This document shows positions 12,002 to 15,634 of a stretch of DNA of 64,000 nt, piece by piece. Location: NCBI GenBank assembly GCA_938015805.1, contig CALLXF010000026.1:1-64000 (forward strand). The letters are read 5' to 3'. The notes beneath the pieces are model-generated. The model saw nothing but the letters and a program-made list of their open reading frames with translations, was not told the DNA's origin and did not search any database. Made by a program: the position numbers and the translations under genes. The DNA is from an uncultured Saprospiraceae bacterium. Lineage in GTDB: Bacteria > Bacteroidota > Bacteroidia > Chitinophagales > Saprospiraceae. Position 1 is the stretch's first letter. Every line of letters begins with the position of its first letter.

Positions 12002-12260
12002 CATAGTATCAGATAATACCGCGTCTATTACTATCTATTATAAATATAACTTATATAGTAATATTTAAAATTCTAGAGCTTTCTAAATAGATTATAAATA
12101 CAAAACTCTCACTAAAAGTAACCTTTACTTACTTAAGAATAGGTCTATGTCTAAATCCAAGTAATACCTTTAAATTTTACTTTTTAACAACCTCTATGAC
12201 GCAGAGAAATAACAAAAAAGTAAAATATTAATAAAAAATTTTATCAGCTATAGAGTTTAC

Positions 12261-12321: not shown

Positions 12322-13440
12322 ATGAACCCATTCTTTATACAACAATATGGTGGACCAAAGTTTTTCTGTGATAGAGAAAAAGAAGTTGCCAGACTGATAG
12401 AATCCGTTACTAATAACAGGTCCCTCATGTTACATTCTATGAGAAGACTCGGCAAGACTGGTCTGATACATCATCTACAGTATTATCTCAAAAAAAAACA
12501 TAAATACACTTGTGTATATCTAGATATCCTAGATACCGATTCTGATGAATCCTTTGTAAACCAATTTATAAACGCTTGTATTTTAACTCTTTTCGACGAC
12601 CAAGCCACTATACTTACTAAAATCACAAACTACTTTGGGAAATATAAACCAAAGTTAAGTATCGATACCCTCACAGGAAATCCCAGCATAGAACTAGACA
12701 TAAAAACAAATAAAGAAGTCGAACTCAGCCTAGACGCAACTTTTAAATTACTCCGTTCTTCTAAAAAACCCATACATATCGCCATTGACGAATTCCAACA
12801 AATAGGTCAATATCCATCCACAAAAATAGATGCTACTATACGTAAACACCTAAGCCAAACTAAAAATGTAAAAATGCTATTTAGTGGAAGCCAGCGGCAT
12901 CTGCTATTAAGCCTCTTTAATAACCCTAAAAAACCAATGTTCGGGTCTGTAGAGCAAATGGAACTTTACGAAATTCCATATCCCAAATATTCTAAATTTA
13001 TACATAAGATGTTCCACAATGGTAAAAAAAATATTGACGAAAGAGTCATCCATAATATTCTTAAATGGACCAGATCTCATACCTTTTACACGCAATATGT
13101 CTGCAATAGATTATACGCTTTAAACAAATCAAGCATCAAAGAAATCGACTTGTATAGAATGCAAAAACAAGTGCTTAATGAGATGCAGATGACCTTCCTA
13201 AGCTATAGAAATATACTTTCTAAAAATCAGTATACTGTACTTAAAGCGATAGCAACAGAATCCTCCGTAAAAACAGTTCGATCCAAAGACTTTACTTCTA
13301 GTTACAATCTAGCCAGTAGTACCGCACAACAGTCATTAGAATACCTTGTAGACAAAGAACTTGTCTACGAAAAACTTACAGAAGAAGGAAAAGAATATTT
13401 TGTTTACGATCTTTTTCTATCTCGATGGCTAGAAAAATAA
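12322..13440 (+). CDS. AAA ATPase of the archaeal-type/MNS group, unknown role
   Basis: 372 residues. Residues about 15-50 contain a Walker A variant (SMRRLGKTGL) where the first glycine is replaced, as is common in this group; Walker B is HIAIDEFQQ (about 153-161). The sensor-1-like segment MLFSGSQRHL follows. The C-terminal part (about 290-372) looks like a winged-helix domain (SYNLASSTAQQSLEYLVDKELVY). This layout matches ATPase_2/archaeal-type ATPases of the STAND/MNS class, often linked to mobile or defence loci, but no effector gene is adjacent, so no defence claim is made. It lies alone behind a repeat-bearing promoter and is convergent with the tRNA gene. An A9 run in codons 58-60 is a possible slippage site. 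Confidence 0.82.
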   Translation: MNPFFIQQYGGPKFFCDREKEVARLIESVTNNRSLMLHSMRRLGKTGLIHHLQYYLKKKHKYTCVYLDILDTDSDESFVNQFINACILTLFDDQATILTKITNYFGKYKPKLSIDTLTGNPSIELDIKTNKEVELSLDATFKLLRSSKKPIHIAIDEFQQIGQYPSTKIDATIRKHLSQTKNVKMLFSGSQRHLLLSLFNNPKKPMFGSVEQMELYEIPYPKYSKFIHKMFHNGKKNIDERVIHNILKWTRSHTFYTQYVCNRLYALNKSSIKEIDLYRMQKQVLNEMQMTFLSYRNILSKNQYTVLKAIATESSVKTVRSKDFTSSYNLASSTAQQSLEYLVDKELVYEKLTEEGKEYFVYDLFLSRWLEK

Positions 13441-13519: not shown

Positions 13520-13524
13520 ATAAG

Positions 13525-13598
13525 TAGCGTGAGAAAGACTTGAACTTTCGACCTCAGCATTATGAATGCTGCGCTCTAACCAGCTGAGCTACCACGCC
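13525..13598 (-). tRNA. tRNA-Met (anticodon CAU)
   Basis: Minus-strand cloverleaf of 74 nucleotides. The acceptor strand GGCGUGG pairs with UCACGCU (two G-U pairs, at 1-72 and 7-66), and the D arm is GCUC/GAGC. The anticodon stem is CAGCA/UGCUG with loop UUCAUAA, anticodon CAU. The T stem is GAAAG/CUUUC with loop UUCAAGU, and the discriminator is A. CCA is not encoded. Body features fit elongator Met; a lysidine-modified tRNA-Ile2 is the alternative. It is transcribed alone from its own promoter with an unusually long repeated leader. Confidence 0.93.
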
Positions 13599-13742
13599 AT
13601 GTGGTTGCGAGGAGTTTATCCTGATAGCATCATCAGGAAGCTACCACGCCATGTGGTTGCGAGGAGTTTATCCTGATAGCATCATCAGGAAGATACCACG
13701 CCATGTGGAAAGCAGAGATTTATCCTGATAAATCATCAGGAA
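13588..13742 (-). repeat. Three tandem leader repeats, each carrying a copy of the tRNA 5' end
   Basis: A 52-base unit is present exactly twice (13588-13639 and 13640-13691) and a third, diverged 51-base copy follows (13692-13742). The first copy overlaps the first 11 bases of the tRNA, so each unit ends, on the transcribed strand, with the tRNA 5' sequence GGCGTGGTA. Every unit also contains the hairpin CCTGAT/ATCAGG and a CCAC-ATGGC-GTGG element that can pair with the acceptor strand copy. Together they form about 145 bases of structured precursor leader. Confidence 0.92.
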
Positions 13743-13854: not shown

Positions 13855-14526
13855 ATGTTTTTTCCAGTAGGTGATGATCAAGTAATCGGTGGGCATAAGC
13901 CCCTCTTTTCGTATTCATTCCTGGTGATAAACATCCTCGTCTATATATTCCAGCTAACCTTAACGGAACAAGGCTGTAAAGAGTTTATGTATCAATATGG
14001 GAGTATACCCCAGGAAATCATGGCCGGACAAGATTATTTTACTCTTTTTACTAATATGTTTATGCATGCTGGATTCCTCCATATCCTAGGAAATATGCTC
14101 TTTTTATGGGTTTTTGCAGATAATATCGAATCCACAATCGGCAATATCTATTTTATTTTATTTTATATCATCGGTGGCCTTGCAGCTAGTGCGGCTCACA
14201 TTTATTTTAATCCCGGTAGTGAAATACCCACTGTCGGAGCCAGTGGAGCTATAGCTGCAGTACTGGGAGCATACGTAGTTTTATTCCCAAAAAATAATAT
14301 CAAGATCAGATTTTTGATTTTTAAGCCTTTTTCTATGATCGCTATTTTGTTCCTCGGAATCTGGTTTGCTCAGAATCTCTACTCTGGTATTGGTTCCATA
14401 GGCCCTAAAACTGCCCAATCTGGTGGCGTTGCTTGGTGGGCTCATATTGGAGGTTTTGTTTTTGGAGTGCTGATAGGATTTATCGCTAGATATAGTTTTC
14501 TTAAAAAGAAGGTAGAATTGGCTTAA
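13855..14526 (+). CDS. Rhomboid-family intramembrane serine protease
   Basis: 223 residues with six hydrophobic helices. The catalytic dyad is Ser130 in VGASGAIAAVLG and His197 in AWWAHIGGFVFG. The HxxxN motif HAGFLHILGNMLFLW (residues 71-85) is also present. It cleaves membrane helices inside the bilayer; substrates are unknown. The extension before the first helix (FFPVGDDQ) is typical of Bacteroidota members. Its last codons TTG GCT TAA lie in one of the dispersed 14-base palindromic motifs (14518-14531). Confidence 0.95.
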   Translation: MFFPVGDDQVIGGHKPLFSYSFLVINILVYIFQLTLTEQGCKEFMYQYGSIPQEIMAGQDYFTLFTNMFMHAGFLHILGNMLFLWVFADNIESTIGNIYFILFYIIGGLAASAAHIYFNPGSEIPTVGASGAIAAVLGAYVVLFPKNNIKIRFLIFKPFSMIAILFLGIWFAQNLYSGIGSIGPKTAQSGGVAWWAHIGGFVFGVLIGFIARYSFLKKKVELA

Positions 14527-14673
14527 GCCAATGTAAAATTCTCGCTTTCCTCTCTACTTATTTTCTTTTACTCGAATAACAAGATTGTTCTTTAGCTAAA
14601 CATATCTCCAAGAAACAGGAATCTATTACAATTAAATATATGTGTTCTTTAACATTTCTTAACGTCTTTCGTT

Positions 14674-14817
14674 AAACAAGCCTTAAAGGAACAAGGAGTT
14701 GTTATCCTTTAGTCTAGCCTATCAGTCTTTACACTGATTGATAAAGCAAAACAGCTTGTTTCAATTGTATTTGATCAGCATTACGTTATAGGGCCTCAAA
14801 AGTGAAGGCCCTTTTTT
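14674..14817 (+). ncRNA. Candidate structured small RNA or structured 3' UTR
   Basis: The 325-base gap between the rhomboid gene and lpxH has no ORF but strong local structure. The closing stem is AAACAAGC (14674-14681) with GCTTGTTT (14754-14761), both perfect. Inside are two arms: TAAAGGA-ACAA with TTGT-TA-TCCTTTA (14684-14711, GGAG tetraloop) and ATCAGT with ACTGAT (14721-14738, six-base loop). A terminator follows at 14791-14817. This is a three-way junction plus terminator, as in a free-standing RNA. It could also be the rhomboid 3' UTR or a leader of lpxH. I could not match it to a known family; 6S-like RNA is one thing to test. Confidence 0.5.
14791..14817 (+). terminator. Rho-independent terminator before lpxH
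   Basis: GGGCCT (14791-14796) pairs with AGGCCC (14806-14811) and six T residues follow. It ends transcription coming from the rhomboid gene or from the structured RNA candidate. Confidence 0.88.
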
Positions 14818-14851
14818 ATTTGCAGTATTTATCTAATCTTTGAGCACCATT

Positions 14852-15634
14852 ATGAGCAGATCAGATAAGCATATATACTTTGCCTCGGACTTCCATCTAG
14901 GAGCGGATACTCCCGAAGAATCCAGCCGAGAACGAGAATGTAAAATAATCAGATGGCTAGAATCCATAAAAGATCGATGCTCAGAACTTTATCTTTTAGG
15001 AGATGTTTTTGACTATTGGTTTGAATATAAAAAAGTAGTACCTAAAGGCTATATCCGGTTTTTATCCAAACTAGCAGACTTTACAGACTCAGGTATCCCA
15101 GTACATATCTTCACAGGAAATCATGATATGTGGTTATCTAATTATCTGGTAAATGAGATAGGCGTAAAGCTATACCACGATCCCATAGAAATCACCTTAC
15201 ACTCTAAAAAAATTTTACTTGGTCATGGAGACGGCCTTGGCCCTGGAGATCATGGATATAAACTGATAAAAAAAATATTTCGGAATAAATTTAATCAATG
15301 GTTATTTGCTAGGTTACATCCTAACTTTGGCGTAAGCCTAATGACTTTTTTTAGCCGAAAAAGCAGAGCTTACGATAAGGAGGACAACAGCTTTACCGCA
15401 CCAGAAAAAGAATGGCTCGTGCAATATTGTGAGGAACAGATCGGAAATAGAGAACTAGACTATCTTATTTTTGGGCATAGACATTTACCTATAGATTATA
15501 CCTTATCTAATGATCATAGTCGTTATATTAACTTAGGAGATATGATATCTTTTAATTCCTACGCCGTGTTGGCGGATGGTGAGCTTACACTTAAATCTTA
15601 TGAAAATCCTTCCCTACGTATTTTTGGTAATTAG
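14852..15634 (+). CDS. lpxH: UDP-2,3-diacylglucosamine diphosphatase (LpxH-type)
   Basis: 260 residues from the ATG at 14852; a TTG at 14840 would add four residues, but the ATG start MSRSDKHIYFASDFHLG is closer to the family. It is a calcineurin-like metallophosphoesterase that splits UDP-diacylglucosamine to lipid X in lipid A synthesis at the inner membrane face. Metal-site motifs in order: SDFHLG, LLGDVFDYW, FTGNHDMW, LLGHGDG and FGHRHLP. The final 35 bases overlap the start of the next lipoprotein gene, suggesting coupling. Confidence 0.9.
   Translation: MSRSDKHIYFASDFHLGADTPEESSRERECKIIRWLESIKDRCSELYLLGDVFDYWFEYKKVVPKGYIRFLSKLADFTDSGIPVHIFTGNHDMWLSNYLVNEIGVKLYHDPIEITLHSKKILLGHGDGLGPGDHGYKLIKKIFRNKFNQWLFARLHPNFGVSLMTFFSRKSRAYDKEDNSFTAPEKEWLVQYCEEQIGNRELDYLIFGHRHLPIDYTLSNDHSRYINLGDMISFNSYAVLADGELTLKSYENPSLRIFGN

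Follow-up and report, generated by a model that had tools for sequence, protein, structure and literature searches.

The window, the 64,000-nt stretch of DNA analysed here from an uncultured Saprospiraceae bacterium, carries a set of short sequence features between a rhomboid protease gene and a gene for an LpxH-like metallophosphatase that together outline a predicted small-RNA gene (Table 1). The name LpxH for the product of 14852..15634 comes from the original prediction and from gene order. The original prediction had placed an RNA at 14674-14817 in non-coding DNA, and the non-coding setting was borne out, as the interval falls between rhomboid (13855-14526) and lpxH. The ends given for the RNA are predicted ones, with the start set 12-13 nt after the -10-like block and the 3' end at the end of the U tract. 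A covariance model built from the core and the terminator (R2) matches the window at 14749-14821 with an E-value of 8.6e-14, and the genome of the window has a single copy of the gene. Further upstream, at 13587-13742, a 52-nt repeat occurs three times in tandem, two units being identical and the third 63% so; the first unit overlaps the 5' end of a minus-strand tRNA-Met gene (13524-13598).

Table 1. Features of the small-RNA locus and its neighbours in the window
Feature	Position	Strand	Remarks
Rhomboid protease gene	13855..14526	+	PF01694, 4e-37; upstream neighbour
Four TTAA boxes, activator-site-like	14649-14652, 14659-14662, 14672-14675, 14683-14686	+	last two at -53 and -42 from the -10-like block
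-35-like block GTTATCC	14701..14707	+	TGTTATC invariant in three genus members; weak match to the strict motif
-10-like block GTCTTTAC	14725..14732	+	AGTCTT invariant in genus; GTC(T/A)(T/A/C)AA in other genera
Predicted small RNA	14737..14818	+	length about 82 nt; ends predicted, the start to within several nt
Predicted 5' hairpin AUUGA..UCAAU, inner AAGC/GCUU	14737..14765	+	fold prediction
Near-invariant, presumed pairing segment UUGAUCAGCAUUAC	14771..14784	+	UUGAU(C/U)AGCAUUAC in 32/38 copies
Intrinsic terminator GGGCCU/AGGCCC, loop region CAAAAGUGA, six U	14791..14817	+	model pairs covary
lpxH-like metallophosphatase gene	14852..15634	+	PF00149; downstream neighbour, ATG at 14852

Distribution and gene context

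A DNA search of 60 genomes, including that of the window, detected the locus in two further genomes of the same genus (G001 and G002), in both of which the gene order of the window is kept: rhomboid, RNA, lpxH and the next gene. A rod fold common to two genus members (model R1), searched over 41 genomes of the family, led to one more genome, G035; an R1 match in G000:C47 was an ordinary terminator without the core, and the rod was dropped after other genera had located the promoter-like blocks. A pattern of the 3' element, run over 398 family genomes, matched in 47 of them, many by chance, and pointed to further genera. Using R2, we observed 39 matches below an E-value of 1e-5 in 29 of the 398 Saprospiraceae genomes, representing 7 of 112 genera; at E up to 0.1 the matches extended to 83/398 genomes, the weaker ones not being counted as members. 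Searches of the same type over the order (298 genomes) and the phylum (296 genomes, partly the same) returned nothing else carrying the core. On reading, four matches outside the seven genera (L205, L224-L226) were without the core, and none of the five weak extra matches read in the window genus and in genus g92 (L260-L263, L266) had the core with a terminator. Fifty-one stretches of viral contigs matched as well, none of them with a terminator on reading, and an exact 17-mer was present in 25 stretches of genome contigs, followed by a terminator only in two genus relatives (L019, L026).

The copy counts that follow refer to a set of 38, that is, 40 matches minus L157, whose 5' end is cut by the contig, and L212, an ordinary terminator. 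In 28 of these copies the gene upstream, in the same orientation, is rhomboid, while lpxH is the next gene in 15, so that it is not the constant downstream neighbour expected of an lpxH leader. Four copies have lpxH without rhomboid, six have neither and 32/38 lie beside one or the other; the other next genes encode 3-HAO, radical SAM, AAA_26, DinB_2, a sigma-70 region 2 protein and a Ribonuc_L-PSP protein. Judged from these arrangements, the RNA's place beside rhomboid and/or lpxH is dependent on neither gene, and the 32 copies beside one of them leave room for a role in cis.

Some genomes have tandem copies, two in G035 and three each in G256 and G202. Contigs end inside the RNA gene at L157, L158 (G302) and L171 (G020), as would happen if the assembly had broken at near-identical copies, and copy numbers in genus g18 may be underestimated. 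L238 (G107:C11:163560-163648, minus strand) has UUGAUCAGCAUUAC in two variant forms separated by 71 nt; behind each comes a hairpin that lacks a U tract, which suggests decayed copies or decoys.

We also built a tree of 39 LpxH proteins, consisting of the best LpxH loci and the RNA-linked ones, with the others picked by LpxH score and with g18, g92 and g104 absent; its 12 RNA-linked rows form one side of a branch (92/89). The RNA family is apparently of single origin, which this tree does not reject, and, as far as the searches reach, it is confined to one clade of Saprospiraceae. Rfam, searched at gathering and at relaxed thresholds, gave no match above cut-off at the RNA, with no family at E up to 10 for the window or up to 1 for eight loci, and the families that the original prediction had put forward (6S, Flavo-1 and Bacteroidales-1) have no match at the locus. 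A literature search returned no report of this RNA, nor of small RNAs studied in Saprospiraceae. The RNA is an undescribed small-RNA family, of a kind that is in itself ordinary; going by the aligned copies, its sequence and control region are unusually rigid.

A recurrent promoter-like control region

Upstream of the copies there is a recurrent architecture, approximately GTKACYT, 13-18 nt and GTC(T/A)(T/A/C)AA, and the -35-like block of the window occupies a place homologous to the GTKACYT of other genera. Going by general consensus sequences, we take this two-block element to be like ECF (sigma-E) promoters. A promoter-like score of 13 or more is reached by 30/38 copies, compared with 0.65 expected from shuffles, with a motif derived from the same sequences it was scored on; the copy in the window scores 11 of 14. 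Because of this shared derivation, a strict form was phrased from genera g111 and g131, where it fits 7/12 copies, and was tried on the rest, where it occurs in 16/26 copies against 0.04 from background, a test that was not blind because the g33 and g18 sequences had already been seen. The strict form is found in none of the three copies of the window genus (g1), nor in the one of g92 or the two of g104. The ECF-type blocks are clear in g18, g33, g111 and g131 and looser in g1, g92 and g104, in which a GTTA or GTAAC block stands 16-17 nt before GTCTT. The strict motif has another match in the window at 12129 (plus strand), about 190 nt upstream of an open reading frame at 12322-13440.

In 27/36 copies (the 38 minus two scoring under 11) a TTAA box precedes the -10-like block by 50-54 nt, where 4.2 would be expected, and this includes all copies counted in g1 (3/3), g92 (1/1) and g104 (2/2). 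Pairs of TTAA boxes spaced by 10 and by 11 nt occur 12 times each, compared with about 1.2 in shuffles; going again by general consensus sequences, the boxes are like the direct repeats of OmpR-type regulators. Boxes and blocks together align the control region of the window with that of the family, which puts the predicted transcript start near 14737.

The transcript and the proposed junction

Conservation reaches far beyond the genus in the 3' part of the locus (14771-14817), while the 5' part is variable even within the genus. The near-invariant segment ends in CAGCAUUAC, directly before the terminator. An exact block of 31 nt, GTAAGTCAAGATAGGAATTGAT(C/T)AGCATTAC, is present in 25/38 copies, compared with LpxH proteins that share about half of their residues; TTGAT(C/T)AGCATTAC is present in 32 and the loop CAAA(A/C/T)GTG in 30 of the 38. 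In the window genus and g92 only the last part of the 31-nt block is common, behind a different 5' hairpin. The same 5' hairpin pairs as in the window are predicted in G001 and G002, and a different hairpin at a like place in g92. Thus folded, the predicted transcript is made up of two hairpins joined by a linker. For the window copy the prediction leaves the conserved segment unpaired (mean accessibility 0.68), and over 30 copies its median accessibility is 0.47, i.e. it is half accessible in many of the predicted folds. Conservation this extreme exceeds that of an ordinary seed and could reflect protein binding.

A strong terminator had been claimed, and GGGCCU/AGGCCC with six U, ending at about 14817, does form one with a predicted energy of -12.9 kcal/mol. 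All seven model pairs change on both sides, with 95.1% of cells paired and 81 cells changed on both sides, a count that leans towards the model because the model's structure guided the alignment. The covariation score was reached by none of 500 shuffles, and sliding the partner strand reduced the paired cells to 63.5% or less. A simple pattern scan did not call the terminator of the window.

The remainder of the original prediction described a three-way junction, and as a single-sequence fold it is there: the minimum-free-energy structure of 14674-14762 (-25 kcal/mol, z -3.24, 3/200 shuffles equally good) includes the 8-bp closing stem (AAACAAGC/GCUUGUUU) and both internal arms, one with an AAGGAG-type loop. 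Within the genus it does not hold as a functional unit. In two homologues (G001 and G002 only, with 7 of the 8 closing pairs counted) 5/7 closing-stem pairs, 4/12 of arm 1 and 6/10 of arm 2 are kept in each; the covariation check yielded a single compensatory cell over closing stem and arms in these two, and each of them, folded alone, takes another fold. The GGAG loop, proposed as a functional part, belongs to these unconserved arms and is located immediately 5' of the -35-like block. The predicted start lies downstream of arm 1, so that the 5' strand of the junction and the AAGGAG-loop arm would be control-region DNA, illustrating how a stable single-sequence fold can mislead. Thus, the small RNA proposed as a stand-alone unit is retained, whereas the shape and limits proposed for it are not.

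A longer RNA starting from about 14674 and adopting the junction fold could still appeal to that stability, to the outer closing-stem pairs, which the genus keeps, and to a conserved TAACG-CTT near 14660 that could be a second promoter. We consider it very improbable, given arms that are not conserved, relatives that fold differently and a 5' half that coincides with the TTAA boxes and the -35-like block of other genera. A cis-acting lpxH leader, in which the promoter drives lpxH and the segment with its terminator acts as an attenuator deciding on read-through, would fit the window genus, g111 and g131, where lpxH comes next on the same strand, and the gap to lpxH of some tens of nucleotides in single or last copies. 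In 23/38 copies, however, a gene other than lpxH is listed next, or the stretch contains none, and the identity of this gene varies; a leader would have no use for several tandem copies that each carry a terminator, and a non-systematic look revealed no alternative antiterminator fold. We regard a leader as unlikely.

Somewhat less likely again is that the rhomboid mRNA is processed at its 3' end to give a small RNA, or that the locus is simply the terminator region of rhomboid. The position of rhomboid in 28 of the 38 copies speaks for such an origin, but the other ten have no rhomboid just upstream (one of them, L167, starts at a contig end), the full promoter motif is present in three of these ten, all from g131, and the promoter-like blocks conserved between gene and RNA favour an own start. 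A divergent housekeeping RNA such as 6S RNA, binding RNA polymerase, would account for the strong conservation, for the usual single locus per genome and for the long rod into which the untrimmed region folds in two relatives. This seems to us the most remote of the four, as there is no Rfam match and 6S-Flavo is over its cut-off in 0/60 genomes, the predicted transcript lacks the shape of a rod with a central bubble, and copies occur in tandem.

A probable antisense RNA under ECF-type control

The reading that we consider rather probable is that a small-RNA gene, together with a control region of its own, occupies 14649-14818 of the window and encodes an Hfq-independent antisense RNA under inferred ECF-sigma-type control. 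At the level of sequence, its stand-alone nature is supported by its occurrence in seven genera, the changing downstream genes, the tandem copies, and the promoter-like architecture and covarying terminator that it has independently of its neighbours. An ECF sigma factor, assisted by an activator of the OmpR type bound at the TTAA boxes, would give rise to an RNA about 70-130 nt long, and about 82 nt long in the window, whose exposed segment would pair with mRNA start regions, most likely those of envelope-protein mRNAs, and repress them, without Hfq and perhaps with an RRM protein as partner. Hfq was found in 0/13 genomes with a search that was positive in 5/14 known control genomes, and RRM_1 proteins are present in 9/10 genomes, G149 having none. 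The antisense action is suggested by the architecture and by analogy with FopS and FoxI/FoxJ. A scan for antisense sites in 10 genomes, with up to 3 mismatches, gave no recurrent start-region target and none that was convincing; the sites read were mostly in coding sequence, often codons of SNADQ. There were more hits than with the reversed control, yet nothing is claimed from this because the control differs in composition.

More tentatively, and as a possibility that we would not favour, the family could be the non-coding arm of an envelope-stress response (ECF sigma factor and OmpR-type regulator), Hfq-independent and tandemly amplified in some genomes; the 31 nt identical in 25/38 copies would then mean that the segment serves several essential targets or also binds protein. 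The family offers a handle on antisense control in Hfq-less Bacteroidota and on the ECF sigma factor serving it.

RybB and MicA of enterobacteria are sigma-E-type small RNAs behind ECF-type promoters, with proven sigma dependence and porin targets, and they need Hfq. FoxI and FoxJ are sigma-E-dependent small RNAs of Fusobacterium (PMC11005410); our RNA is similar in being a stand-alone short gene behind an ECF-type promoter and, like FoxJ, which was first taken for a 5' leader, in its fixed place just upstream of a gene, but sigma dependence and porin targets are proven there and inferred here. It differs from FoxI/FoxJ and from RybB/MicA in having no C-rich seed, and its sequence is unrelated to theirs as far as Rfam shows.

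FopS and GibS are small RNAs of Bacteroidaceae that act with the RRM protein RbpB and resemble ours in phylum, in short length, in a conserved and presumably single-stranded seed ahead of an intrinsic terminator, and in paralogous copies (PMC11697453). The setting is also alike, RRM-1 proteins being present and Hfq not found here. FopS has housekeeping-type promoters and 14 dispersed copies, and the targets of FopS/GibS are known (PMC11697453), in contrast to the ECF-like blocks, the one to four, partly tandem copies and the putative targets here. No sequence match to FopS/GibS was obtained via Rfam for the window and eight loci, with an Rfam copy that may lack FopS.

Within Bacteroidota, the Rfp RNAs of Flavobacterium psychrophilum, which belongs to another family and order, can be compared by description: one of them, Rfp11, has a promoter of a class whose CGT -10 box is attributed to ECF sigma factors (PMC9723704). 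The 6S-Flavo RNA (RF01685), likewise non-coding, about 100 nt long and from the same phylum, has no match at the locus, and the fold predicted here is not a rod. In one g104 copy (L215, G107) the same-strand gene next after the RNA encodes a protein with sigma-70 region 2 (PF04542, 4e-8), which is a candidate for the sigma factor involved.
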